Made by a program: the position numbers and the translations under genes
Assembly: GCA_025463515.1 (NCBI GenBank)
Contig: JAODAQ010000013.1
Location: forward strand, 1-64,000
Reading direction: 5' to 3'
Length of the DNA stretch: 64,000 nt
Origin: Rhodoglobus sp.
GTDB taxonomy: Bacteria > Actinomycetota > Actinomycetes > Actinomycetales > Microbacteriaceae
Shown: one piece after another, positions 1 to 25,486 of the stretch
How positions within the stretch are numbered: position 1 is the stretch's first letter
Layout of the letters: every line of letters begins with the position of its first letter
The notes under the pieces: model-generated
What the model was told of the DNA's origin: nothing
The model's input: only the letters and a program-made list of their open reading frames with translations
The model's database searches: none

Positions 1-569
1 TCGGGGTCCGTGGCGGTGTAGTCCAGAACCAGGTTGCCCGCTTCCGGCAGCCAGTCGAAGAGCGGCGCGTTGTTGAACACGGGGGCAACGTTGTAGACGC
101 CCGCCGTCTTGGTGAAACGCACCCACTGCGAGAAGTTACCGTCGCCGTTCTCCGGGCCCACCCGGCAGCAGGTCTCGGCGTACACCTCGTAGATACCGTC
201 CTCGAGCGACGAAACGTCGCCCTCAATCGTCTCCGTGGCGACGCCGAACAACGGGTTGCTGAAGTCGTCCACGTAGCTGCTCAGTTCGAGATCCACGCCG
301 GTGTAGACGCCGCTGTCCGGTGCGTCCGACGCCGAGCTGAGCTCATAAACGCCGATCGTGTCGCCCACGGTCTCCCCGACCAGGGAGCCGGAGTCAAACG
401 ACCGCCAGACCGTGTCCACAGTCCACGTGGCATAGCCGCCGGTGATTGAGAAGTCCCCCGTGCTCGCGCGATTGTGACTCGCGGTGGCTGCGGCGGCGGG
501 GAGGAGGACCAAGGGAATCGTGACCAGACCCACCAGGAGGCGGAGTCGGGAGGCGCGCGTAGTGCTCAA
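1..569 (-). CDS. Exported protein of unknown function (partial, C-terminus runs off the window)
   Basis: Open minus-strand frame from TTG at 569 to the window edge; translates as MSTTRASRLRLLVGLVTIPLVLLPAAAATASHNRAS..., a signal peptide-like N-terminus. Confidence 0.6.
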   Translation of the reverse strand, partial: MSTTRASRLRLLVGLVTIPLVLLPAAAATASHNRASTGDFSITGGYATWTVDTVWRSFDSGSLVGETVGDTIGVYELSSASDAPDSGVYTGVDLELSSYVDDFSNPLFGVATETIEGDVSSLEDGIYEVYAETCCRVGPENGDGNFSQWVRFTKTAGVYNVAPVFNNAPLFDWLPEAGNLVLDYTATDP

Positions 570-667
570 GGGATCGTCTTTCTCTAACGGCGAACCCCGA
601 TATACCGCTGGGGTGGTCCGAAATTAGCAGAAAACGATCAGGTTACGCAAAGAGGCGCGCGCCCCAG

Positions 668-1528
668 TTAATTGCCGAGCCAGATCATCTCGTTGTCAAT
701 GAGTCGCGTACCGCCCAGCTGCGCCGCGATGATCGCGATCGCCGGCCCGCGGTAGTCGTCGTCGACCGGAAGGAAGGTGCGCGGATGCACGACCTTGAGG
801 TAGTCCAGCTTGACCAGCGATTCGCCCATGAGTGCGCCCTGGGCTGCGGCGAGCGCGGCGTCCAGCCCCGAGTCGGCGGATGACGCGGCCGCCTCGAGCG
901 CGACCGACAGGGTGCGGGCGGCCCTGCGCTCCTTCGGGTCGAGGAATCGGTTGCGGCTGGAGAGCGCGAGCCCGTCGTCCTCCCGCACCGTGTCAATGGC
1001 CTCGATGCGCACGGGGATGTCGAGGTCGACGACCATGCGGCGCACGAGGAACAGCTGCTGGGCATCCTTCTGGCCGAACGTGGCCACGTCGGGCGTCACG
1101 ATGCCGAGGAGCTTGGCGACGACCGTGAGCACCCCGTCGAAGTGGCCGGGGCGGGCAGTTCCCTCGAAGAGCGTGCCGACCTTGCCTGCCGCGACCACGG
1201 TGTCGGTGGGCCCGGTCGGGTACATCTCTGCGACGCTCGGCGCGAAGACGTAGTCGACCCCGGCAGCGGCGAGCTTCGCGAGGTCGGCGTCGAGGGTACG
1301 CGGATACCGGTCAAGATCCTCGCTCGCGCCGAATTGGGTGGGATTGACGAAGATCGATACGACGCGTACGTCCGCGAGTTCGGTCGCCCGCGCGACGTGC
1401 GCGAGGTGCCCGTCGTGAAGGGCGCCGAGCGTGGGGGTGAGGGCGATGGTGCGGCCTGCCGCACGCTCAGTGGCAACGGCCTCGCGCATCCCGGCGATCG
1501 TGTCGATCACAATGGGAACAGTGCTCAC
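668..1528 (-). CDS. panC: Pantothenate synthetase
   Basis: TPTLGALHDGHLAHVARA, FVNPTQF, FGQKDAQQLFLVRRMV and LSSRNRFL motifs. Confidence 0.95.
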   Translation of the reverse strand: MSTVPIVIDTIAGMREAVATERAAGRTIALTPTLGALHDGHLAHVARATELADVRVVSIFVNPTQFGASEDLDRYPRTLDADLAKLAAAGVDYVFAPSVAEMYPTGPTDTVVAAGKVGTLFEGTARPGHFDGVLTVVAKLLGIVTPDVATFGQKDAQQLFLVRRMVVDLDIPVRIEAIDTVREDDGLALSSRNRFLDPKERRAARTLSVALEAAASSADSGLDAALAAAQGALMGESLVKLDYLKVVHPRTFLPVDDDYRGPAIAIIAAQLGGTRLIDNEMIWLGN

Positions 1529-2256
1529 GGAAGGTCCTCCTGGTCGTCCAACGAGGACAGGTCGATCGTACTGGGACTCGCGGAGGCGAGCGCCGTCTCG
1601 ACCGACGAGCGCACGAGTGGAGCGATCACGGCACCGGGGTACTCGACGCCGAGCCTGGCGAGCAGTTCGACGGCCTGGCCAACGATGGAGGCGGAGAAGC
1701 TCGTCGCGGTCGCGATGGCCTCGGCATACGCGGCCCGGTCGGCCTCGGCGATCACGACCGGTTCGGCGCCCATCTCCACGACGAGCGCCTGCCCGATGGG
1801 CAGCACGGGAGTCGGCGCGGTCACGGCGCAGTAGCTCTCCCGCAGTCGCACCAGATCCAGCGAGGTTCCCGTGAATACCATCGCCGGATGCACGGCCAGC
1901 GGTATCGCGCCCGCCGCCGTCGCCGGGGCGAGCACTGAGTAGCCGAGCCCAGGAGCTGTATGGAGCAGCAGCTGCCCCGGCTGCCAGGCACCGGTTGCCG
2001 CAAGGCCGGCGACGAGGGACTCGATCTCGCCCTCCGGGATGGCGAGGATGACGAGTTCACTGCGCTCGATGACCGCCGGGATGTCGAGGATCGGCACGTC
2101 GGGCAGCATCGCCCGCGCTCGCTCGCGGTTGCGCTCACTCACCGCCGCGATGCCCACGAGCGCGTGCCCGGCGCCTGCGAGGGCGGCACCGAGCACAGGC
2201 CCGACGCGTCCCGCGCCGATGATCCCGATGCCAAGCCGACCGGACTGGCTAGTCAC
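1525..2256 (-). CDS. Rossmann-fold / DUF2520-type oxidoreductase-like protein next to panC
   Basis: N-terminal GIIGAGRVGPVLGAALAGAGH Rossmann motif; AVHPAMVFTGT typical of this family; overlaps the panC start. Confidence 0.8.
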   Translation of the reverse strand: MTSQSGRLGIGIIGAGRVGPVLGAALAGAGHALVGIAAVSERNRERARAMLPDVPILDIPAVIERSELVILAIPEGEIESLVAGLAATGAWQPGQLLLHTAPGLGYSVLAPATAAGAIPLAVHPAMVFTGTSLDLVRLRESYCAVTAPTPVLPIGQALVVEMGAEPVVIAEADRAAYAEAIATATSFSASIVGQAVELLARLGVEYPGAVIAPLVRSSVETALASASPSTIDLSSLDDQEDLP

Positions 2257-3868
2257 TGGGCATCAGGCGGGCGGTGGGTGTGCTGCGCCAGCGGTGACTA
2301 GTGTCTGCGCCGGCCGAGCGGACCGCGGCATCCGCCACATCACGGAAGAATCGCGCGGCCTCGTCGGCGTCGACGGCACCGAGGCGCGGGATGACCGGCC
2401 CGGCAACGGTGTGCAGCCGCAGCGATGCCAGGCGCAGCCAGCGCAGGAGCGGCCCCTGGTGCATGGCGACGCTCTGCATCCGCGCCTGCGGGACAACGAC
2501 CAGTTCGCGCCAGATCGCACCGCGGCGCAGCAGAACCGCCCCGGGGACGATGGCGAACCCGTTGCGTCGCACCGAGAACCAGCGGAGCACCCGCGCCCGC
2601 GGCGGGGAGTTCACGAAACCGTCGTCCCCACCCCGCGACGTGAGCCCGCGCTCGAGCAGCCCGATCCCTTCGGCGTCGATCAGGCCGGGCAACACAAGCT
2701 CGAGCACCTTCTTGACGTCGGCGAGGTTGCCGACCGGAAGGATCGTGGTGTTCGCCTGGCCGGCGGCGCCTTTCGCCGACGACGTCGACGCACGGCTGAT
2801 CTTGATCTCCCACCAACCGGCCGGGCGCCACAGCAGCGGCTGGCCGACCTGCACGGCGTGGATGCGACCGGGCGGCAGGGTCTCGTTGCTCGTCGAGAGC
2901 AACCCGAACCCGACACGGACGCCGTCGGGCGTCGACGCGATGCTGTACCGCAGCGACCGCGTGAACTTGGAGACGTAGTAGCTGCCCATGCCGATGATCG
3001 CCGGCAGGAAGCCGAACAGGAAGAAGTACTCCCGCGTGACGGTGATGGTCACGATCGACAGGATGACGCCCACGACCAGGAAGACGGTGAAGCCGCTCAG
3101 CACCAGTGACCCGACGAGGCGGCCGAGGTGCATCTGCACAACCGAATCGGGCTGCGCGGCATCCGGTGCCAGCTCGGGAGCGAGCAGCTCGGTGACTCGC
3201 TGCTCGATGATGCCGCCGACCTTCGCGGTCTCGGATGCGGCCTCGGCTGGGCCCCCGCTGCCGGTTACGGACGATGCGTCAGCATCGGCCGTCCGTGCAG
3301 TAGGGGAGGTGCCAGACGCGAGCAGCAGGATCTCCCGCCGCAACTCGTCCGCCGCGCCCGATGCGAGGTAGGCGAGCTGCACGTTGGCATCCTGTCCGGC
3401 CACGTTGATCTCGAGCTTGGCGGCGCCGAACAGCCGCGCGAGGAACGGCCGCACGATGTTGATGCCCTGGATGCGGTCGAGCCGCCCGCGACGGTTGGTG
3501 CGGAACAGGATGCCGCTGCGCACCTCCACCTGTTCCTCTGTGATGCGGAAGGTGTGCATGCGCCACGAGACGTAGAACCCCGCGATGAACAGCAGCAGCC
3601 CGCCGATGATCGCCAGGATGATGAGGCCGGCGTAGTCATGCTCGATAATCCACACGAAGGGGTCGTACTCGTCGCCGGGGCTCCCACCGATGACGATGTT
3701 GATCACGACGTCGCGGAGGTTAACGATGATGATGCCGAGGATGGCGACGAAGGCGATGCCGCCCTTGAGCAGCGGGGTCGCGGGGTGAAGCCGATGCCAC
3801 TCACTGTCAGCGAGGCGGGCGCCGGTGCTGATGTTCTCAGCTGGGGCTTTCGGCTTCTGCTCGCTCAC
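2249..3868 (-). CDS. PH domain-containing membrane protein (YdbT-like)
   Basis: Repeated bPH2-type units with TM segments; likely GTG start at 3868 (VSEQKPKAP...), not the longer ORF start. Confidence 0.8.
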   Translation of the reverse strand: MSEQKPKAPAENISTGARLADSEWHRLHPATPLLKGGIAFVAILGIIIVNLRDVVINIVIGGSPGDEYDPFVWIIEHDYAGLIILAIIGGLLLFIAGFYVSWRMHTFRITEEQVEVRSGILFRTNRRGRLDRIQGINIVRPFLARLFGAAKLEINVAGQDANVQLAYLASGAADELRREILLLASGTSPTARTADADASSVTGSGGPAEAASETAKVGGIIEQRVTELLAPELAPDAAQPDSVVQMHLGRLVGSLVLSGFTVFLVVGVILSIVTITVTREYFFLFGFLPAIIGMGSYYVSKFTRSLRYSIASTPDGVRVGFGLLSTSNETLPPGRIHAVQVGQPLLWRPAGWWEIKISRASTSSAKGAAGQANTTILPVGNLADVKKVLELVLPGLIDAEGIGLLERGLTSRGGDDGFVNSPPRARVLRWFSVRRNGFAIVPGAVLLRRGAIWRELVVVPQARMQSVAMHQGPLLRWLRLASLRLHTVAGPVIPRLGAVDADEAARFFRDVADAAVRSAGADTSHRWRSTPTARLMPSD

Positions 3869-4350
3869 AAGCCGGCCCTGCGGGTCTCCGCAAGCGCAAC
3901 GAGCTTGTCTCTCAACTCCTCGGCGACCGTTTCGGGCAGGCCGGGGATGACCACACCGGACGCCGCCGCGGCCGTCACGAACTTGAGTTCGCTGAGCCCG
4001 ACCGCCCGATCGAGCGGACCGCGGTTGATGTCGACGAGCTGCATGCGGCCGTATGGCACCGCGACGAAGCGCTGGAACATGAGTCCCTTGCGAAAGAGGA
4101 GGTCGTCTGCGCGCAGCTGGTAGCCGAGGGCACGCACCCGCCGGGGCGTGAGCGCGAGAGTGATGATGAAGATGACCGCGAGAGAGGCGGGAATCGCCCA
4201 GAGTAACGCGTTCTTCGTGAGGAAGGCCGGCACCGAGGTCGCGGCCACGACGATGACGGCGAAGATCAGGGTGCCGAAGAAGTCGACGACGACATACTTC
4301 GGGGACACGCGGCGCCACTCGATGTCAGGCAGTTCGAGACGGGTGCTCAC
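3865..4350 (-). CDS. PH domain-containing protein (YdbS-like)
   Basis: LRADDLLFRKGLMFQRFVAVPYGRMQLVDINRGPLDRAVGLSELKF bPH2 signature; coupled to the downstream PH protein. Confidence 0.8.
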   Translation of the reverse strand: MSTRLELPDIEWRRVSPKYVVVDFFGTLIFAVIVVAATSVPAFLTKNALLWAIPASLAVIFIITLALTPRRVRALGYQLRADDLLFRKGLMFQRFVAVPYGRMQLVDINRGPLDRAVGLSELKFVTAAAASGVVIPGLPETVAEELRDKLVALAETRRAGL

Positions 4351-6638: not shown

Positions 6639-7212
6639 GCCCCGCGCCGATCAGCGCCATGATCTCCGCGCGGACGACCGGGTTGCTGAGCGTGCCACGG
6701 GTGGCCATGGTCACGGTCGAGCTCCTGGCCTGCCGCACTCCCCGCGCGGAGACGCAGTCGTGCACCGCATCGAGCACCACGACCACGCCCTGCGGCGTGA
6801 GACCGGCGGTGAGGGCATCCGCTATCTCTTCGGTGAGGCGCTCCTGCAGCTGTGGACGGGAGGCGAGAGTCTCGACGACGCGGGGTAGTTTGCCGAGGCC
6901 CACGATGCGGCGGCCCGGCACATACGCGATGTGCGCCACACCCCGGAACGGGAGCAGATGGTGCTCGCACATGGATCGGAAGTCGATGTCGCGCAGGAGC
7001 ACGAGTTCGCTCAGCTCGTCCGCTCCGGCATGGAACTCGACCGTGTCGGCGAGATGGTCGAGCGGGTCGACATCGACCCCGGAGAAGAATTCACCGTAGG
7101 CCTTGGCCACCCGCTGCGGCGTCGTCGCGAGACCCGGCCGCGCCGTGTCCTCGCCGATCGCGGCGAGAATCTCGGCCACGGCCGCCTCGATGCGTCCGAA
7201 GTCGATGGCCAT
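6631..7212 (-). CDS. folE: GTP cyclohydrolase I
   Basis: DIDFRSMCEHHLLPFRGVAHIAYVPG, GLGKLPRVVE, GVVVVLDAVHDCVSARGV. Confidence 0.96.
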   Translation of the reverse strand: MAIDFGRIEAAVAEILAAIGEDTARPGLATTPQRVAKAYGEFFSGVDVDPLDHLADTVEFHAGADELSELVLLRDIDFRSMCEHHLLPFRGVAHIAYVPGRRIVGLGKLPRVVETLASRPQLQERLTEEIADALTAGLTPQGVVVVLDAVHDCVSARGVRQARSSTVTMATRGTLSNPVVRAEIMALIGAGHD

Positions 7213-7224
7213 GGGTCCGTCGCG

Positions 7225-9231
<2,007 letters not shown>

Positions 9232-16773: not shown

Positions 16774-16849
16774 GGCTCTGTAGCTCAGTTGGTAGAGCGC
16801 ACGACTGAAAATCGTGAGGTCACGGGATCGACGCCCGTCGGAGCCACCA
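16774..16849 (+). tRNA. tRNA-Phe (anticodon GAA), CCA encoded; integration target
   Basis: ggctctgtagctcagttggtagagcgcacgactGAAaatcgtgaggtcacgggatcgacgcccgtcggagccacca. Confidence 0.95.
16804..16849. repeat. att repeat copy 1 (left end, inside tRNA-Phe)
   Basis: actgaaaatcgtgaggtcacgggatcgacgcccgtcggagccacca, repeated at 21951-21993 (43/43 over the shared core) and 25441-25486 (45/46). Confidence 0.92.
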
Positions 16850-17830
16850 CTAAATATCCAGGTCAGAGCCCGTTTTTGCGGCTTCCTCACCCCCTCCCGA
16901 TTGACCTCTCGATTTCGGGCGATAGAAGTCACTCAGGGCGACCGCGCCGCGCTTGGCGGCATCGTTGCGAGTATTGGCGTAGAGCTGCGTGACGGCGAGT
17001 GACGATTGCCCCAGGATCGCCTGCACGTCGGGAGCCGAGAGCCCGGCGCGGAAGAGCATGACCGCCGCTGTGTGCCGCAGGTCGTGCCAGTGCAGCTGTT
17101 CTTCGTCGGGTGGGAATCGCTTGATCGATTCGCGAATGGTGAACCAATCGAGCGCGCGGCTGAGGTTCTTCGAGTTGATCGTGCCGCCACGAGGGCCGGG
17201 AAATAGCCAGCTAAAGGGCTCCTTGCCGTCCTCTGCCTCGCGGACGATGGGCGCGAACGGAGCGGCCAGCGGGACGGCGCGAACGCGGCGACCCTTCGTC
17301 GGCCCGATCAGAAGTTGCCCGGTCAAGCCCGGCGAGGCTGTGCGGCTGATGTTGATCGTGTTCGTCGCCCAGTCGATGTCGGCGGGACGGAGTGCGGCTA
17401 TCTCGCCTAGGCGGCAGCCTGTGTAGAGCATGGCGAGCACGAAACGGCGATAGGGGCCGCTCTGCGGCAGCGCCTCGAGCAGCACGTCGATCTGCTCGAG
17501 GTTCAGCGCCCGCGACGTGGGGTCGCTGTCTTGTGTGCGGGGACGCTCGACACCCACGCATGGATTCGTCGGGATGATCCCGCCCTTGATCGCCGTGCGG
17601 CAGATCCGCGACAGCAGACTGAGCGCATCGACGCGCGTGGAGTACGCGCCCGACCAGGACGCGACCGCCAGCTCGACCTCGAGCGTGCTGATCTGCTCAA
17701 TCTCGCGTGCGCCGAACGTCGGCCCCACCCGCTTGCCCCAGGCATAGGTGTAGGCGCGGCCCGTGCCCGGTGAGATGTTGCTGAGGATGAGGGGACGGTA
17801 GCGGTCGTACAGCTCCCCCACCGTCGTCAC
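16850..17830 (-). CDS. Tyrosine recombinase/integrase
   Basis: TGCRLGEIAAL (Arg box), HWHDLRHTAAVMLFRAG (HxxR box), LGQSSLAVTQLYAN (Tyr); stop codon abuts the tRNA-Phe att repeat. Confidence 0.95.
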   Translation of the reverse strand: MTTVGELYDRYRPLILSNISPGTGRAYTYAWGKRVGPTFGAREIEQISTLEVELAVASWSGAYSTRVDALSLLSRICRTAIKGGIIPTNPCVGVERPRTQDSDPTSRALNLEQIDVLLEALPQSGPYRRFVLAMLYTGCRLGEIAALRPADIDWATNTINISRTASPGLTGQLLIGPTKGRRVRAVPLAAPFAPIVREAEDGKEPFSWLFPGPRGGTINSKNLSRALDWFTIRESIKRFPPDEEQLHWHDLRHTAAVMLFRAGLSAPDVQAILGQSSLAVTQLYANTRNDAAKRGAVALSDFYRPKSRGQSGGGEEAAKTGSDLDI

Positions 17831-17936: not shown

Positions 17937-18344
17937 ATGGCGGACAAAGTGGAACCCGAGGACGACGCCCTTGAGTTGGCGGTCGACGGATTGCAGTGGC
18001 GCGACGTTGGGATTCGTCTTCGAGAGCTCTCCGAACAGCTCCGAGCTGTGGCCGATTACATCGACGACAAGAAGCTCGAAGAAGTGGGCCGACAGGCCTA
18101 CGAGCACGGACACGATGAAGTGATCGCGGAATACGACGCTGAAGCCGACCGCAGGTTTCGGCGGACCTTGAGCGGACTTGGTACCTATCGTCGCAACTAC
18201 CACCGCTGGGAGCGCGTGATCGCAGAGTTCGCCCTCACGAGGATGAACTACACACAGCGCGACACGGCACAACTTCTTGGCGTAGGTCTCAGCACCATTA
18301 ACCGTTGGGCCCAGAACCCGTTGCCGCTCGAGGACGAGCACTAG
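17937..18344 (+). CDS. HTH-containing putative regulator of the element
   Basis: C-terminal NYTQRDTAQLLGVGLSTINRWAQNP helix-turn-helix; divergent from int. Confidence 0.65.
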   Translation: MADKVEPEDDALELAVDGLQWRDVGIRLRELSEQLRAVADYIDDKKLEEVGRQAYEHGHDEVIAEYDAEADRRFRRTLSGLGTYRRNYHRWERVIAEFALTRMNYTQRDTAQLLGVGLSTINRWAQNPLPLEDEH

Positions 18345-18354
18345 GAATTCCAGC

Positions 18355-18765
18355 ATGAGCATCCTTCTCGAGATCATCGGCGGCTTCTTGATGTTCTTGA
18401 TGCCCGACCTCGCTCCCAAAGGCAGACGCACCGATCGGCGGCTCATCGCCGAGGACAAGGTGAGGTGCGGCATCCGCGCTTTCGATAGTCGCGTGCAGAA
18501 CATCGGGACCGAGTGGAGCACCGGCGTGTGCAAGATCAGCCCTGGTCATCTGAGGTTCGTCCCCAGCATGGGAATCGTGGGCGACCGAGAGATCGACGTG
18601 CTCGGCCTGAGACTTATGGAGGGCGGCCCGTACGAGCGGGTCGTCGTGCCGTGGGGCGAGTCGACTGACCTCGTGATCACTACCGGAACTGGCGAACTCT
18701 ATTGGGTGGTTCCCGAGCACATCGCCGACGAGGTCATCGCGCGTCTTGCACCACTAACGGTCTGA
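18355..18765 (+). CDS. Hypothetical protein with N-terminal hydrophobic segment
   Basis: MSILLEIIGGFLMFLMPDL...; directly downstream of the HTH gene. Confidence 0.6.
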   Translation: MSILLEIIGGFLMFLMPDLAPKGRRTDRRLIAEDKVRCGIRAFDSRVQNIGTEWSTGVCKISPGHLRFVPSMGIVGDREIDVLGLRLMEGGPYERVVVPWGESTDLVITTGTGELYWVVPEHIADEVIARLAPLTV

Positions 18766-18799: not shown

Positions 18800-19279
18800 T
18801 CAAGGGCGCGGCTGCGCCGCTTCTAATTCGGCCCAATGCTGGCTAAGACGGAATAGCGCATCACGCACGAGGGTCTGGGCTTCGTGGGGAGACAGCCGCG
18901 GGAAGCGGAGCACGGCTTCCAGGCTGGTCATTGCTTCATCGAGGTGCGTGTGCACACCCAGCGGCAACTCCGTGTGGTTCAACCATCGGTGGAAATGAAC
19001 GATCTCGTGAGCGAGCGCAGTTTGCATCGATAGCGCACTGTTCGGGTCTGCCATGCCTAACCCCGGATAGACGTCACTTCCGATGACCACGATTCCATAG
19101 TCGTGCCCGGTGCCGTCGTCCTCAATAACGAACCGAGTATGTCCGTCCGGTTCCGGACGATACGGCACCTGGTCATCCAAGCCGACAAGCGTGCCGACCG
19201 CTCGCCGAATGTCTCCTTCGTCGAGGGGTGCGCTGGACCTCCCCGCAAGCAGGGACCGCGTGTCCCGTGTGGAGGTCAT
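18800..19279 (-). CDS. Putative HExxH zinc metallopeptidase-like protein
   Basis: ALAHEIVHFHRWLNH with downstream acidic helix HLDEAMTSLEAVLRF (possible third ligand); ATGA overlap with the upstream gene. Confidence 0.65.
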   Translation of the reverse strand: MTSTRDTRSLLAGRSSAPLDEGDIRRAVGTLVGLDDQVPYRPEPDGHTRFVIEDDGTGHDYGIVVIGSDVYPGLGMADPNSALSMQTALAHEIVHFHRWLNHTELPLGVHTHLDEAMTSLEAVLRFPRLSPHEAQTLVRDALFRLSQHWAELEAAQPRP

Positions 19280-20511
19280 TGCTCTACACGCGCGCGCAGC
19301 GCACGGGTGGCTTGGGAGCGACTACCGCCGGTATTGACGATGGTTAGCTTCCCGGTATCAGGATTGGGCTTCGTGATGCCGAGGTCCACCCACAGCGGGT
19401 TGTCCCGGTCCATGTAGTCGCCGGACCAGGTTCCTTGCTTGTAAACATTCACCGGCGCGAGTTTGGCGAGGCGCTCTTTCCATAGTCGCTTTCCCGCAAC
19501 CGAACCCGTTTTGGTGAGATCATTCGAATAATCTCGCAGAAGACCGGCGTACGCCAGCATCATCACACCCGACGAAGCAAGTGAACTGTCCCTCTGCGAA
19601 TGAGGAGTGCTCGTACGAAGTTCGGGCCGAACATCGGTCAGCAGCCCAAGAAAATCTGCTGCGATCGAAGCGAGACCGTCGAGCTCAGTTTCTTCGACTT
19701 CGTCAGTCCCGGCGAAAATCCTCATCATTTCGCGGAGGGTTGAGAGTGTCATGAAATGGGGGGCGCTCTTCGAGACGCGATCAGTAACCCGATTGACCCC
19801 AGAGTCCAAGTTTGGAGATCGATCCAGAACTCGTTTTGCGAGGGTGGACAGATCATCTTGGGTGGTCAGGTCGTACGCCTTAGACAGTGCTGTCGGCTTA
19901 GGACGCTGATTCTTGTCGAAGAAATAGTTTCCCTCGTCTTCTCTGTCTAGAAAATAGAGCTCGACCTTGAACTGCCGATCGAGTGAGAATTTAGGGAAGC
20001 TGCTCGGATGCTCCCGGTAGGACCGCACTGCCTTAACTATCGCTTGGTGGCGGTGGTGGGAATCGGGGAGATGAACCTTGCCGCTAAACAGAGAGATCTC
20101 GGCGCTGTCATCGTCCCAGTAGGCCTCGAATTCCCTCGGACGGAGGTTCCAGACGAGCGGATTAAGAAACAGCCGCTCTCCGTAAAGCAGCTTCTCTACT
20201 ATCCGATCCGCATTCGCCGCATCGAAGACGTAGCGCGAATCTGGGTACCCGTCGCCTACTGAGAGTTCACGAGGCGTCGCCGCGTCAGCCGACGGGACTA
20301 TGCCGCGCTGGACCGACTGGTCCGTCCAAATCAAGTTGGATTCAGCAGCATCAGCGATTTCTTCGATCGTGAGAGTGATAGTGGCGAACGCCTCATCCGC
20401 AACTCCTGTCCACTGGACGTCGGGTAGCGTCAGCCGACCTTTGCGAGGCGAGCCTCCCGCTGTACGCTTCGGCTCGGTCAGAAAGCCTTCGATCTCAGGT
20501 TGCATGACCAC
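19276..20511 (-). CDS. DndB/DGQHR-like domain protein
   Basis: KVHLPDSHHRHQAIVKAV resembles a degenerate DGQHR/ParB-like motif; YFFDKNQRPKPTALSKAYDL resembles the DndB 'N..aKp.s' motif; family call from memory of motifs. Confidence 0.55.
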   Translation of the reverse strand: MVMQPEIEGFLTEPKRTAGGSPRKGRLTLPDVQWTGVADEAFATITLTIEEIADAAESNLIWTDQSVQRGIVPSADAATPRELSVGDGYPDSRYVFDAANADRIVEKLLYGERLFLNPLVWNLRPREFEAYWDDDSAEISLFSGKVHLPDSHHRHQAIVKAVRSYREHPSSFPKFSLDRQFKVELYFLDREDEGNYFFDKNQRPKPTALSKAYDLTTQDDLSTLAKRVLDRSPNLDSGVNRVTDRVSKSAPHFMTLSTLREMMRIFAGTDEVEETELDGLASIAADFLGLLTDVRPELRTSTPHSQRDSSLASSGVMMLAYAGLLRDYSNDLTKTGSVAGKRLWKERLAKLAPVNVYKQGTWSGDYMDRDNPLWVDLGITKPNPDTGKLTIVNTGGSRSQATRALRARVEQ

Positions 20512-20601
20512 ACGTTACGGCCTTCCAGTCGACTCCGCCGTTCGCCTCAACAAGACCAGCCCGGGCATCGCACCGCCGCCGCCAGCATCACCCCTCCGCT
20601 A

Positions 20602-20649
20602 CGGGCGTCAACCCTGCTACGCATCCACGGACTACGGGGTTGACGCCCG
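20602..20649. repeat. 13-bp inverted repeat with 22-nt loop between rep/microprotein and the DndB-like gene
   Basis: cGGGCGTCAACCC (20602-20614) and GGGTTGACGCCCg (20637-20649) are exact reverse complements. Confidence 0.7.
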
Positions 20650-20693
20650 CCTCTCCCGGGGCGGTGCCTCTGGCTATCGGTGCGATGCCCTCC

Positions 20694-20840
20694 CTATCGA
20701 TTCAGGTCAGGTATGCAGTACCCACAGAGCTCACGCCCCGCAGGACTATCGCGAAGGTTCTGCGGGAACACCGGATTCCCGCACACGTCGCACGAGCGGT
20801 AGCCCAACGCCTCACACATTCCACAGTCAGCAGCAGCCAT
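20694..20840 (-). CDS. 48-aa cysteine-rich (three CxxC) small protein, zinc-ribbon-like
   Basis: Manual translation: MAAADCGMCEALGYRSCDVCGNPVFPQNLRDSPAGRELCGYCIPDLNR*; strong SD-like GAGGGGGTGATCGAT directly upstream; lies 21 nt downstream of rep. Not in the ORF track (too short). Confidence 0.7.
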   Translation of the reverse strand: MAAADCGMCEALGYRSCDVCGNPVFPQNLRDSPAGRELCGYCIPDLNR

Positions 20841-20861: not shown

Positions 20862-21923
20862 TCACGGCAGCACCGCAGAACGGGCCACATCGATCCGGTG
20901 ATTCAGGGACGACCTAGCCGAGTCAGCGCCGTCCTGATCGCCTGCCGCCGGCGACGGCTCGGCCGCTGGCGCGTCCTGCGCCCTCGCCGCCGCCCAGGCT
21001 GCCCGAAGGGTCCGCTGAATCTTGCGTGTCAGACCAGTGAATGACCATCCCGCGCGGTGCCGAGTCTGACGGGACGCACTCAATACATGAGAGCGGGAAC
21101 CGTAACGGTCGTGCACGCGACTGCCGCACTCCGAGGGCACGCAGTCCGGGGAACAGCGCATCGCCCGCGCGGCCCGGCCCAGCTCGGTCAGATGCACCCA
21201 CGCGAGGTTGCTCCCGGCGCCTCCCATCGCCGCCAGAGCGGTGTCCTTCATGACGTAGTTCAGCGCCTTCGAGAGGTACCAAATCGTCTTTGCACCGTCG
21301 CCGTCCGCGCGAAATGCTTTGGCGTCAGCCTGGTCACCCCACCCGACGACCGTCCCGTCCACCTTCGACGCCGCCTCCGCTGTGCGCGCGGCCTCCCGCA
21401 GCGCGACCGGCTCCGGTGACTCGAGCCGATCGATGCGCACGATGACGTGCAGATGCAGAACCCCTCGCTCTTGCCACTCGCGCACCAGGAAGAACTCGAC
21501 GGAATCCCAGCGATCACGGACCCGTCTGCGGGTGCGATCCCACAGCACCCCGGCATCACGATTCCAGGCCACCTGCCCCGCGTAGTCATAGGACACCGGA
21601 TCGAGCGGAACTCCTTTCAGACCCGCGTCGCGCACCGTGTGCGTGGCCCCGCACCCACACCGCTTCAACCGCGACGACTCCGAACGCGGCACACGATGCA
21701 CCCGCCCGAACGACGGGGCCGTGAGAGTCAGTAGGTAGAAGCGGAACCGCGTGACGTCCGAATCGAACACCCCAGAGCGCGCTATCGCCGCCCAGTCACC
21801 CCGGTACAACTCCGCGCACGAAGGGCACGCCGACCGAACGCGAGACTGGCAGCGGACGAACTGGCCCGACTTCGTCTTGTACGGGCGAACGCATCCGGTT
21901 GGACGCGAATCGGCAGATTCCAT
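20862..21923 (-). CDS. Replication initiator protein, RepSA-like (HUH/rolling-circle type)
   Basis: Cys-rich N-terminus (CPSC, CGCG); GVLHLHVIVRID HUH motif; downstream Tyr residues IWYLSKALNYVMKD. Confidence 0.8.
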   Translation of the reverse strand: MESADSRPTGCVRPYKTKSGQFVRCQSRVRSACPSCAELYRGDWAAIARSGVFDSDVTRFRFYLLTLTAPSFGRVHRVPRSESSRLKRCGCGATHTVRDAGLKGVPLDPVSYDYAGQVAWNRDAGVLWDRTRRRVRDRWDSVEFFLVREWQERGVLHLHVIVRIDRLESPEPVALREAARTAEAASKVDGTVVGWGDQADAKAFRADGDGAKTIWYLSKALNYVMKDTALAAMGGAGSNLAWVHLTELGRAARAMRCSPDCVPSECGSRVHDRYGSRSHVLSASRQTRHRAGWSFTGLTRKIQRTLRAAWAAARAQDAPAAEPSPAAGDQDGADSARSSLNHRIDVARSAVLP

Positions 21924-21950: not shown

Positions 21951-21993
21951 CTGAAAATCGTGAGGTCACGGGATCGACGCCCGTCGGAGCCAC
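21951..21993. repeat. att repeat copy 2 (internal junction)
   Basis: ctgaaaatcgtgaggtcacgggatcgacgcccgtcggagccac, identical over 43 bp to 16805-16847. Confidence 0.93.
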
Positions 21994-22041
21994 TGTCGTC
22001 AGCAGAATCGCGAGGACTAGTCACTTCGATAGTATGTCGGC

Positions 22042-23103
22042 GTGACTCCCGTCTGGTTGGACAGAACCGTGACGGTTGGCGTCGCCGTACTGACCGCCGC
22101 GGGAATTGCGGTGTGCGGCTTCACCGGCTGGCAGACGCTGGTGCCGCAGACTTCCCCGAATATCACAGACGGCAACCTCATTGCCCTGGTGCTCGAGCAG
22201 AAGGACGGCGCTGGCTGGGGTTGGGTGCAGTCGGACCGGGTTATCGACCCTGCCGTGGATGACACTGTCGTGCTGCGCTTTTGGGCCAGCACCACCGATC
22301 CCGATGGCGCCTCTTTCGTCCTCGCGGGACCGATGATCAAGGCTTTGCGCACGTGCTACGGCAACGGTACGCATTGGGACGAATCACCCGTGGCCTTCGA
22401 TGCGCTGAGCTCCGATGAGCAGACCGCGGTCGTGAGGTTCCAGCTCTACGCACCCTCACATGGCCTGCTCAAGGCCGATGTTGGAAATCAAGTGATGTCG
22501 GAGGAGGAAGCGAACCTCGCGGCCTCGGAGCAGACCTACGTGCGGGTGACCTCTGCCTCGTCCGCACCAGACTCGCGCACTCACTCAACGACATCTGGAG
22601 CCAAAACAACTGTGGAGGTGGACGCCCGTCAATTCAGCTTCGCGTGCAGTTTCGAACCGGAGGCCTTCTGGCGGATGCAGCAGGGTCAGAGGACTTTCAC
22701 ATTCCCGACAGTCTCGGAGACTTTCTCCTTTGCATCCGATACGAACTACGCCTACATCGATCGGACTGTCACATTCGTGCGGCGCCCCGGGCTGTCCGTC
22801 GTCTCTCTCGGCGACCCGCCCGACTACTCAAATTCCGCGTCCACCGAGTTCAGAGATAACTGGTCCGCTTGGAACTACCGCGAGAAATCGACCCTCGTCC
22901 TGAACAAGGAGGTCGCGGTCTTCACAGCGACATCGGACGATACCGAGCATCAATCGCAGATGCTCGTTCTCGGGACGGGACTGGCATTCCTCGGAACCCT
23001 GGTGCTCTCGCTCGGAAGGCGTGTCACCGACGCTCTCAGCCGTAGGCTCGCGTTCCGTCGTATGGCCGGAGAAGAACCGGCGGACCCATGCACTTCTGGA
23101 TAA
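22042..23103 (+). CDS. Extracytoplasmic membrane protein of unknown function, paralogue 1
   Basis: N-terminal TM (VTVGVAVLTAAGIAVCGFTGW) and C-terminal TM (LVLGTGLAFLGTLVLSLG); FSFACSFEPEAFWRMQQGQRTFTFPTVSE motif shared with the next gene. Confidence 0.7.
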   Translation: MTPVWLDRTVTVGVAVLTAAGIAVCGFTGWQTLVPQTSPNITDGNLIALVLEQKDGAGWGWVQSDRVIDPAVDDTVVLRFWASTTDPDGASFVLAGPMIKALRTCYGNGTHWDESPVAFDALSSDEQTAVVRFQLYAPSHGLLKADVGNQVMSEEEANLAASEQTYVRVTSASSAPDSRTHSTTSGAKTTVEVDARQFSFACSFEPEAFWRMQQGQRTFTFPTVSETFSFASDTNYAYIDRTVTFVRRPGLSVVSLGDPPDYSNSASTEFRDNWSAWNYREKSTLVLNKEVAVFTATSDDTEHQSQMLVLGTGLAFLGTLVLSLGRRVTDALSRRLAFRRMAGEEPADPCTSG

Positions 23104-24257
23104 AAACTCTCGGCGCCGCAGTGCTCGGGGTGCTGAGCTGGATCTTCCTCATCGCGCCTGCGCTCGATGCGCTGACAACGAGCGATCCGGCCAACGCATC
23201 GCAGCCGTCCCTCCTCGCGATAGTCGACAACGACGCCATGGTCGCTGCCGACGTCGTGACCAAGATTGTGGACGTCGATCCATCCTCTACGGACCTGGAG
23301 CGCGTCTACTTCGAACTCACCTTCGGTGTTGCGCAGGAAGGTGCGGAACAAGGAGACAGGAAGACGGTCAACTTCGAGACGACCGCAATCGATCGAGCAG
23401 CGGCAGAAACCGCCGAGCGTCGGGCAGACGAGAACTCCAGGTACGGTCAAACGGTTGTGCTGCTCGGCCCGCTCGCAGAGGGCCTGGAGTCTTGCGATGA
23501 GCCGTCGATCTCCATCGATCGCAACCTCGACTACTCGGCACTCACCGATGCCGAGAAGGCCGCCGTCTTGAACTACCTCACAGGGAGCGTCAGCGAGGCC
23601 AACGCGGACAGGGTGAGCCCGTCAAGCGGAGATCAGTACGCGACTCCGGGAGACGTGGCCTATGGGTTGCGGTACACAACCCTCCAGCCCCGAGTCTTCT
23701 ACCCGCTGGCCCCAGGGTCCGAGTCAATAAAAAGTGACGACGGCGAGACGCGGACATACGACGCCTTCTGGAACTCGTTCACGTGCGACTTCGACGGATC
23801 TGCTTTTTGGTCCGAAGGCGACGATCGGAGAACGTTCACTTTCCCCGATATGAGCATCATCTCGACGAGCGCGAACGCCGAGACTGTGGTTCGGGTGCGG
23901 AGAACGATTCAGGACGTCAGCACGGTGAACTCCGAACGGCTGTCGACTGAGGGGAGCACGTCGAAGCTCCCGGGCGGGATAGATCAGGTAGAGGATTCGA
24001 GGGTGCTGTGGAACTCACCCAGCGCTCAGACGTCCTTGCCGTCGGTCGCCGTCCAATACGGCGACATGAGTGCCAGCCAGCATCGAGAGCTCCTCATCTT
24101 CTTGGGTGGAGTCGGCCTGTCGGTCGCGGCCGCTTCGGTGGTGTCGTTGGGGAGATCGTTCCTGCTGCTCGGCTTGCCGGGACTACTGCTCCATCTGGCC
24201 CGATGGAGGTCCAGGAGACTTGTTGAACCCGATACGGACGGAAATGAGGCTCGGTGA
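23088..24257 (+). CDS. Extracytoplasmic membrane protein of unknown function, paralogue 2
   Basis: N-terminal TM (LGAAVLGVLSWIFLIAPAL), C-terminal TM; NSFTCDFDGSAFWSEGDDRRTFTFPDMS matches paralogue 1; 16-bp overlap with the upstream gene. Confidence 0.7.
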   Translation: MHFWIKTLGAAVLGVLSWIFLIAPALDALTTSDPANASQPSLLAIVDNDAMVAADVVTKIVDVDPSSTDLERVYFELTFGVAQEGAEQGDRKTVNFETTAIDRAAAETAERRADENSRYGQTVVLLGPLAEGLESCDEPSISIDRNLDYSALTDAEKAAVLNYLTGSVSEANADRVSPSSGDQYATPGDVAYGLRYTTLQPRVFYPLAPGSESIKSDDGETRTYDAFWNSFTCDFDGSAFWSEGDDRRTFTFPDMSIISTSANAETVVRVRRTIQDVSTVNSERLSTEGSTSKLPGGIDQVEDSRVLWNSPSAQTSLPSVAVQYGDMSASQHRELLIFLGGVGLSVAAASVVSLGRSFLLLGLPGLLLHLARWRSRRLVEPDTDGNEAR

Positions 24258-25321
24258 GAACAGTTCTGCGAATTTCCGCGCGCGCAGCGGTTCTTGCGAG
24301 TCTGATTGCGTCTCTGTCCGCCTGCACGCAACCGCTCGTGTTTTCGAGCAGCGTCACCTGCGCCGAGTTTTTGGACTTATCTGCGACAGACCAACAAGAA
24401 GCCACCGGCAGCCACGCCGAGAATCAATTGATCCTCGACCTGACTCCATCGGGAGCGAAGCGGGTTGCTCCCGTCGACTACCTCAGGACCAGGTGCAGTG
24501 CAGGCCAGCTCTCTGAGATCGGTGTCGGCTACATTCTCTCCGCAGCGAGTCGGCCAACCTGCGATGGGTTTCTCTCATCACCCCCAAATGTCAGGCTCGA
24601 GTGGCTTTCGGCCATGATCCCCGACGACGAGGACGTCGACCGCGGATTCTCACTAGATGTGGCCACCGCCTGCCTCGGCGGCGGCGAACTCAAGGAGGCT
24701 GTGGGCCGCGTTCGCACCGGGACGGAATCGCCGGATCTCATCCTGCCGATTGCCGACTTTCCCCACTCACTCACTTGGACGACCACCAGCAAGTCGGGAA
24801 ATCTGGTCGGAGGAGTTCTCGAAGTGGGCGATGTGATCGAGACAGGGGAGAATCCGCCGTGGAGCACTGCGGGTAGTTCGATCACGGCCGGCGATGGATG
24901 CGGCTACGACCCCGCAAAGGACGCTGTAGTTCCCGCACGCTTGGTGGCGATGAATAGATCGAGCGTACCCGTTCGAGTGTCCGTGGCCATAAGCATCACG
25001 CGGTCCGAGCAACGAGGGATCATGCTGGCGATCGATTCGGGAACGTACTGCGATCTGGAGGACGAAGCCGGAAACCTCGGCCTCACCATCCGGTCGAACA
25101 GCACGACCGTTCAGCCCGGCCAGACTTACCCGATCGCGTTTTTTATCATGCTCAAGAACTACGTCGGATCAGACGACGCCGCGAACGCTCTGGCCGGCTA
25201 CACGGTGGAGCCCTTCCCTGCCTGGATCGATGGTGACAATCCTGTCGTGGATGGGCCGCAGGATGTGGCCCTGGATCTTTCCGTGGTGGGGAGCGGGTCA
25301 CGAACAAGTCCAACTGGCTAG
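24254..25321 (+). CDS. Putative lipoprotein of unknown function
   Basis: VRTVLRISARAAVLASLIASLSAC|TQPL: signal peptide with lipobox; GTGA overlap with the upstream stop. Confidence 0.7.
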   Translation: MRTVLRISARAAVLASLIASLSACTQPLVFSSSVTCAEFLDLSATDQQEATGSHAENQLILDLTPSGAKRVAPVDYLRTRCSAGQLSEIGVGYILSAASRPTCDGFLSSPPNVRLEWLSAMIPDDEDVDRGFSLDVATACLGGGELKEAVGRVRTGTESPDLILPIADFPHSLTWTTTSKSGNLVGGVLEVGDVIETGENPPWSTAGSSITAGDGCGYDPAKDAVVPARLVAMNRSSVPVRVSVAISITRSEQRGIMLAIDSGTYCDLEDEAGNLGLTIRSNSTTVQPGQTYPIAFFIMLKNYVGSDDAANALAGYTVEPFPAWIDGDNPVVDGPQDVALDLSVVGSGSRTSPTG

Positions 25322-25440
25322 AAGGCTCCTTGAGGTCGAGGTCGAGGTGCCCCTCGATCGTGCTCGGCAATTCGGACGAGGACGCCGACCGGGAGGCCTA
25401 GTAGCTAAAGACTCTGCGGACTCTGTCCCAGCCCGATGTC

Positions 25441-25486
25441 ACTGAAAGTCGTGAGGTCACGGGATCGACGCCCGTCGGAGCCACCA
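25441..25486. repeat. att repeat copy 3 (right end)
   Basis: actgaaagtcgtgaggtcacgggatcgacgcccgtcggagccacca, 45/46 identical to 16804-16849. Confidence 0.92.

Follow-up and report, generated by a model that had tools for sequence, protein, structure and literature searches.

Organization of the locus

The DNA analysed here, referred to as the window, is a 64,000-nucleotide stretch from Rhodoglobus sp. Two overlapping genes on its minus strand are the only recognisable cargo of a 5.1-kb element (Table 1). The first gene encodes a 411-aa protein of the DndB family and starts with GTG, with another in-frame ATG two codons later. The second gene starts with ATG and encodes a 159-aa HExxH protein. 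Both ORFs, their strand and their ATGA overlap had been placed correctly in the initial annotation, and all the motifs that it quoted were found (LPDSHHRHQAI and FFDKNQRPKP in the first protein; ALAHEIVHFHRWLNH and LDEAMTSLEAV in the second).

In addition to this pair, the element contains genes for an integrase, an HTH regulator and a RepSA-type replication initiator (rep), and a 136-aa ORF. Because the 3' end of tRNA-Phe is repeated as att copies 1 and 2, the pair lies within a 5.1-kb integrative element. Carriage on such an element had been suggested earlier, and the integrase, the tRNA and the 43-bp repeats that bound the 5.1 kb bear this out. In two genomes of the same genus (L058 and L059), att occurs just once at this tRNA, and the stretch read there contained no recognisable element. 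The GC content of the DndB-like gene is 57%, vs 70% for the host.

Table 1 Features of the DndB-family/HExxH gene pair and its carrier element.
Feature	Position	Strand	Basis
Tyrosine integrase abutting tRNA-Phe	16850..17830	-	PF00589, 1e-21
HTH regulator, 42-52% identical in some sister elements	17937..18344	+	Comparison with sister elements
136-aa ORF with no assigned function, absent from the seven other pair loci	18355..18765	+	ORF
Orphan HExxH protein, 159 aa, predicted mini-gluzincin peptidase (SLLAGR N-terminus, DPNSxLS, AHExxHxxRW, T, DEAxT)	18800..19279	-	Invariant HExxH-19-E; structure model
Start/stop overlap (ATGA, 4 bp) of both genes, suggesting translational coupling	19276..19279	-	Overlap recurs at the Agromyces locus and within a sister element's DUF262/HEPN cargo
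DndB-family (PF14072) gene, 411 aa, predicted ParB/Srx-type NTP switch or sensor	19276..20511	-	Pfam match and motifs invariant in eight homologues
RepSA-type (pSAM2) replication initiator	20862..21923	-	PF20199, 9e-33
att repeat copy 1, inside tRNA-Phe (16774-16849)	16805..16847	+	Direct repeat of the tRNA 3' end
att repeat copy 2, distal boundary of the carrier	21951..21993	+	43/43 identical
att repeat copy 3, far end of the second tandem att-bounded segment	25449..25486	+	38/38 identical

Between rep and the cargo, positions 20563-20690 form a strong nested hairpin (DNA fold z -6.1; no shuffle was equally stable). The hairpin is partly kept in a sister element (L070 3274-3549, 71% over 284 bp) and is a candidate for the replication origin of the element. 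A 48-aa zinc-ribbon-like ORF (MAAADCGMCEALGYRSCDVCGNPVF...) lies just downstream of rep (20694-20840, minus strand), and its start region is kept after rep in four sister elements. A second att-bounded segment (21994-25486), which lacks an integrase, adjoins the carrier element in tandem. Its three ORFs (22042-25321) overlap, and two of these are paralogues (25%). None of the three had a family match, and a search of 249 other host-family genomes did not recover the middle ORF.

The DndB-family protein

The 411-aa protein matches PF14072 (DndB) over residues 95-379 (4.8e-14, 52.6 bits vs a gathering threshold of 29.1), and the PADLOC model of DndB gives a weak match (1.4e-4). Its scores are below the NCBIfam cut-offs of TIGR03233, the equivalog model of DndB proper (21.7 vs 328 bits), and of TIGR03187, the DGQHR domain (28.7 vs 58.85 bits). 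The hallmarks of DGQHR and DUF262 proteins are the motifs QR, DGQ[HQ]R and FxxxN (PMC4619093). All three positions lie within conserved blocks of the 411-aa family, with the pentapeptide altered to DSHHR. In the window protein, QR is found at residues 68-69, DSHHR at 150-154 and FxxxN at 197-201, and the blocks TDQxVQRG, LFL, WNLRP, LPDSHHR, EDEGNYFxDKN and STLRE are invariant or nearly so among eight DndB-like proteins. The DndB/DGQHR relation proposed earlier is upheld by the PF14072 match above cut-off, but the signature that gave it its name is not DGQHR in any of the eight aligned proteins, all of which have DSHHR between the flanking QR and FxxxN motifs.

The AlphaFold2 model of the protein is of moderate quality (pLDDT 74, pTM 0.49). 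When this model was compared with the PDB using Foldseek, nucleotide-bound ParB ranked first (E 0.03), SspE ranked 5, 6 and 11, and BrxU ranked 13 and 15, all with E > 0.001 and none significant alone. The recurrence of the ParB/Srx fold class among these sub-threshold matches to a predicted model agrees with the DndB family assignment, and the protein was not placed outside the DGQHR/ParB-Srx fold to which the initial annotation had related it. Searches of solved structures by sequence, with both single sequences and profiles, returned nothing meaningful for either protein of the pair. The PF14072 gene of the window is the only DndB-family gene in the assembly, and its subfamily is absent from the 249 other genomes of the host family.

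The HExxH protein

No family match to the 159-aa protein was found in Pfam, NCBIfam, PHROGs or PADLOC, and its homologues also lack a convincing match to a Pfam family. An HExxH string arises in 3.3% of shuffles of this protein; therefore, the motif is weak evidence when seen in one protein alone. Among seven homologues (the window protein and six others that are 40-54% identical to it), both His residues and the Glu of HExxH as well as the DEA motif are invariant, as are SLLAGR, DPNSxLS, AHExxHxxRW and DEAxT. In every member, the Glu of DEA follows the second His by exactly 20 residues (HExxH-19-E). HExxH-19-E is the gluzincin spacing, which is the same in thermolysin. The structural pattern of gluzincins is also present, with HExxH in a helix (85-100) and the downstream Glu in the next helix (111-125), in all seven members by sequence and in the predicted model.

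The predicted structure (pLDDT 80, pTM 0.79) consists of helix 21-34, strands 40-42, 49-54 and 60-66, helices 85-100 and 111-125, and one C-terminal helix. The order of a helix, three strands, the HExxH helix and the Glu helix is that of the zincin core as described in PMC5512222, although no Foldseek match was significant. There was no zincin among the matches of the model in the PDB. Against viral models, an SprT-like protein and a polyvalent protein were among the best matches and a phage peptidase ranked sixth, all with E > 0.01. From its conserved sequence pattern and model, the 159-aa protein is predicted to be a mini-gluzincin peptidase. The initial annotation had likened it to the ImmA/IrrE (M78) peptidases. 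This assignment did not hold beyond the motif level: PF06114 has no match in the seven members (E up to 10), and in profile-profile comparison the family resembles M78 over no more than 14-18 columns, all in the HExxH helix, with a probability of about 20-22%.

Pairing and distribution of the two genes

A search of plasmid proteins yielded one close relative of each protein, and the two are adjacent on S. meliloti pSymA (54% and 45% identity). When an alignment of two sequences was used to scan 85,488 species genomes, six further loci with a homologue of the 411-aa protein (54-64% identical over nearly its full length) emerged: Agromyces kandeliae, three Bradyrhizobium, a Dehalococcoidia MAG and a Silanimonas MAG. 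An HExxH gene is immediately downstream in all seven other loci, and the pair is thus kept at all eight loci including the window. Its hosts span three phyla (Actinomycetota, Alpha- and Gammaproteobacteria, and Chloroflexota), and the distribution is cross-phylum and sparse, not actinobacterial. At one locus (L007), an IS insertion has broken the HExxH gene, which is cut after about 40 codons; the first gene is intact, and a transposase, presumably of the IS3 type judging from its sequence, is just downstream.

The pairwise divergences of the two proteins correlate (Mantel r 0.82; exact, 7/5040 permutations). No third gene common to the eight loci was found. No solo peptidase was present in plasmids, and a peptidase profile run against 399 sampled genomes of the phylum returned the window itself and one marginal partial match with internal stops. 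Beside the other actinobacterial PF14072 genes that we inspected, no convincing HExxH partner was found; two HExxH strings were in frames that look non-coding. Phage records and viral contigs contained no relatives of the pair, and only one plasmid record carries it. Its identities are near 55% across phyla, and it adjoins recombinase trios both on S. meliloti pSymA and in Bradyrhizobium. On present evidence, the two genes are an obligate unit, rare and horizontally spread; the obligate character follows from the pairing at all eight loci, the co-divergence, the lack of anything else in common and the near absence of solo peptidases. The idea of a stand-alone two-gene module, for which conservation of the pair in other genomes had been named as the check, was thereby strengthened. 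The 136-aa ORF of the window was considered as a third component and rejected, as it is absent from the seven other pair loci.

The earlier statement that no dndACDE genes are nearby can be extended, since a PAPS-reductase/DndC-family gene is absent from the whole 3.3-Mb assembly (controls positive). A search of the assembly for DndE was also empty, in this case without a positive control match.

Genomic neighbourhoods and the cargo slot of sister elements

Defence genes adjoin the pair at three of the seven other loci. In S. meliloti, recombinase genes, FRG, HerA (3e-291) and SIR2 (4e-201) are within 10 kb of the pair. In Agromyces, the next downstream gene is DUF4062/PDC-S60-like (1e-21) and is followed by an NB-ARC NTPase. 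In Silanimonas, the next gene is convergent and encodes an RT-DUF3800 protein (4e-58). At the other four loci (all Bradyrhizobium and the Dehalococcoidia contig), no recognised defence gene was found beside the pair in the stretch read. In Bradyrhizobium BR13661, the pair comes shortly after a recombinase trio, small ORFs and a RecD-like helicase.

The cargo slot of the sister elements provides the most telling evidence, and it strongly suggests defence. An element in the same tRNA of a same-genus genome (L056) has an integrase, regulator and rep that are 49%, 52% and 70% identical to those of the window element, respectively. Its slot between rep and regulator (6971-8586) holds a gene for a DUF262 protein with YLVLDGQQRLRT, which overlaps a RiboL-PSP HEPN gene by 4 bp. 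The DUF262 protein matches GmrSD_N (1e-28) and, in PADLOC, NsnA (2e-53) and PD-T4-2_A (6e-44). Protection against T4 by PD-T4-2 has been validated experimentally (PMC9519451). In the other sister elements, the RepSA protein is 63-70% identical to the rep of the window. One of their slots contains a pair of AAA genes, HEC-01A (6e-91) and HEC-01B (4e-28), with a 4-bp overlap; further slots contain TIR-TM (3e-49), AIPR/AbiU (6e-30 / 5e-19) and a PemK toxin module. One sister element has no obvious cargo, and a type I restriction gene adjoins its rep. Defence or toxin genes are thus found in five of the six occupied slots (raw count).

Proposed function and alternative explanations

Because the pair always travels together across distant bacteria and occupies a slot that holds anti-phage genes in the sister elements, an anti-phage role is probable, and the pair is probably a two-gene anti-phage system of a new kind. 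A role in defence is strongly suggested by genomic context alone. Defence, anti-defence and element maintenance had been left side by side in the initial annotation; the cargo of the sister slots and the defence neighbours at three of the seven other loci favour the first. We propose that the pair is a stand-alone anti-phage module, carried as cargo of a small integrative element, in which a DndB-family switch unleashes a small gluzincin, and we give this reading a probability of about 0.5.

In the proposed mechanism, the DndB-family protein would be a nucleotide switch of the ParB/Srx fold that senses an infection cue through its QR / DSHHR / FxxxN pocket. Candidate cues are altered or incoming DNA and a changed nucleotide pool. 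In the resting cell, it would bind or restrain the co-translated gluzincin. Upon infection, NTP binding or hydrolysis would change its shape, and the peptidase would be freed or activated. The freed peptidase would then cut a phage or host protein and stop the infection, probably by abortive infection. The NTP switching, the mutual control and the proteolysis are suggested by analogy only. SspE, BrxU and GmrSD share the ParB/Srx fold; in SspE, phosphorothioate sensing is coupled through the NTPase to a nickase; and NTP control of the effector has been proposed for the DUF262 proteins in PD-T4-2, Menshen and Dazbog (PMC10952713). The R87A mutation in the DGQQR motif of DndI abolishes ATPase activity and strongly reduces defence (PMC11662687), and a bacterial DndB-like protein binds ATP and GTP (PMC12704722). 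By the same analogy, R154 may be the pocket arginine of the 411-aa protein, and the peptidase may take the effector place held elsewhere by HEPN or HNH domains. Protease effectors have precedents in Lit, which cuts EF-Tu in abortive infection (PMC12926258), and in the peptidase effectors of MoxR-vWA systems (PMC12839542). Counting against the proposal, DndB has been described as a transcriptional regulator, not as an effector-gating sensor (PMC4507180), the known loci of the pair number only eight, and four of the seven beyond the window have no recognised defence gene beside it in the stretch read.

The alternative that survives best, which we nevertheless consider unlikely, is a regulatory pair similar to ImmA/ImmR. 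The DndB-family protein would repress its own operon or the excision or replication of the element, and the peptidase would destroy it on a signal and switch the element on. HExxH proteases cut repressors in some mobile elements, and the pair does share its element with an integrase and rep. DndB is also a DNA-binding negative regulator (PMC4507180). However, the pair is found in unrelated carriers (the RepSA element, pSymA near recombinases, the Bradyrhizobium recombinase-trio element and chromosomal sites) with no common target operon. Elements of the same backbone that lack the pair hold other cargo in its place, so that it appears dispensable for element control. The element already has its own HTH regulator, and the peptidase resembles M78 at the motif level only.

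A toxic peptidase neutralised by the DndB-like protein, with loss of the element killing the cell, is rather improbable. The first gene encodes a nucleotide-pocket protein far bigger than a usual antitoxin, and its pocket motifs, which pure neutralisation would not need, are invariant. These points weigh against such a maintenance function despite the arrangement of two overlapping genes on a mobile element and the PemK toxin module in the same slot of a sister element. Toxin-antitoxin modules often double as abortive-infection systems, which counts in favour of this explanation. The broken peptidase gene beside an intact first gene in L007 is compatible with defence and with toxin-antitoxin function alike.

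It is distinctly doubtful that the pair serves anti-defence or establishment in the manner of the ParB-type DNase and zincin peptidase of phage P1 DdrB and of conjugative polyvalent proteins, with the peptidase processing the ParB-type protein or cutting host defence proteins on entry. Invasive elements do encode polyvalent proteins that combine ParB/Srx domains with zincin peptidases (PMC5512222), and a polyvalent phage protein is among the best, sub-threshold, predicted-structure matches of the 159-aa protein. Nevertheless, relatives of the pair are absent from phage records and viral contigs and are limited to one plasmid record, and the other cargo recognised in the slot is of the defence or toxin type, not anti-defence. 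A Dnd or Dpd accessory serving modification genes elsewhere in the genome, to which the family name and the nearest outside plasmid relative (a Scytonema DGQHR protein near tgt, a DpdA-like queuine tRNA-ribosyltransferase) would point, is very improbable given the lack of a PAPS-reductase/DndC-family gene in the whole assembly, a score far under the DndB equivalog cut-off (21.7 vs 328 bits) and modification genes recognised at none of the eight loci.

Relation to known systems and significance

The anti-phage module proposed here resembles the PD-T4-2 and NsnAB-type DUF262 (GmrSD_N) modules, which also consist of two overlapping genes with a putative DGQxR/ParB-Srx-type NTPase-like protein first and a small domain second, and one of which (in L056) occupies the same rep-regulator slot in the same element family. 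It differs from them in having a DndB-family (DSHHR) protein instead of DUF262 and a predicted zincin-type peptidase instead of an HEPN RNase; the PADLOC models of PD-T4-2 and Nsn match neither window protein, only the cargo of the sister element. SspE, DndI, GmrSD and BrxU share with the 411-aa protein a proposed NTP switch with a D-x-x-[QH]-R pocket that would control a separate effector activity, but theirs is an HNH nuclease in the same chain, whereas here it would be a separate HExxH protein, with no linked modification genes. DndB of Dnd and DpdB of Dpd are linked to the 411-aa protein through PF14072, the Pfam family of DndB; unlike them, the pair is without dnd or dpd genes, has DSHHR in place of DGQHR, is below the equivalog thresholds and has an obligate HExxH partner.

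ImmA/IrrE (M78) proteins are likewise short HExxH proteins on mobile elements, but the 159-aa protein has no profile match and its partner is not an HTH repressor. Lit, the protease of prophage e14, is an HExxH-type peptidase. It cuts EF-Tu in abortive infection (PMC12926258) but is a single larger protein that is triggered by a phage capsid peptide and has no DndB-like partner. P1 DdrB and its relatives combine a ParB/Srx domain with a zincin-like metallopeptidase (PMC5512222); they differ in being single large polypeptides of invasive elements with a ParB domain of another clade, and the phage records searched contain no relatives of the pair.

The DndB family, the zincin-type superfamilies and sensor-effector logic in general are already known. 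For the gene combination, the DSHHR subfamily and the peptidase family, the libraries searched gave no specific match, and no description was found in the open-access literature searched. With somewhat less than even odds, the pair may represent a new class of immune system, in which a nucleotide switch of the DndB family, free-standing and lacking DNA-modification genes, would gate a mini-gluzincin dedicated to it and belonging to an uncatalogued family. If true, it would be the protease counterpart of the DUF262-HEPN modules, and ParB/Srx sensors would be plug-in receptors for unrelated effector chemistries.

DndB has so far been studied almost only as a regulator inside phosphorothioation systems; here, its family occurs where no such system is present and is tied to a partner of the protease type. 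Should the module be defensive, proteolysis would join the outputs of ParB/Srx-type sensors, which have so far been nucleases and RNases, and the cues detected by these sensors could be studied with a minimum of two genes. The 159-aa protein would define a peptidase family that has no entry in the profile libraries searched. That DUF262-HEPN and DndB-peptidase replace each other at the same slot within an element family amounts to a natural experiment on modular immunity.

The cargo slot of RepSA elements may be a productive source of further small defence systems. The elements in L069-L074 are small RepSA/tyrosine-integrase elements in tRNA-Phe or tRNA-Met of the host family, and their slots mostly hold defence or toxin modules. 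In L072, the same slot contains a 190-aa ORF (3534-4106) of no known family, probably membrane-anchored, which is a candidate defence gene by position. In L056, an 840-aa ORF overlaps a 278-aa ORF with MAHELTHIWQ (HExxH) beyond the third att copy (101-3456), and these are perhaps further peptidase-bearing cargo.
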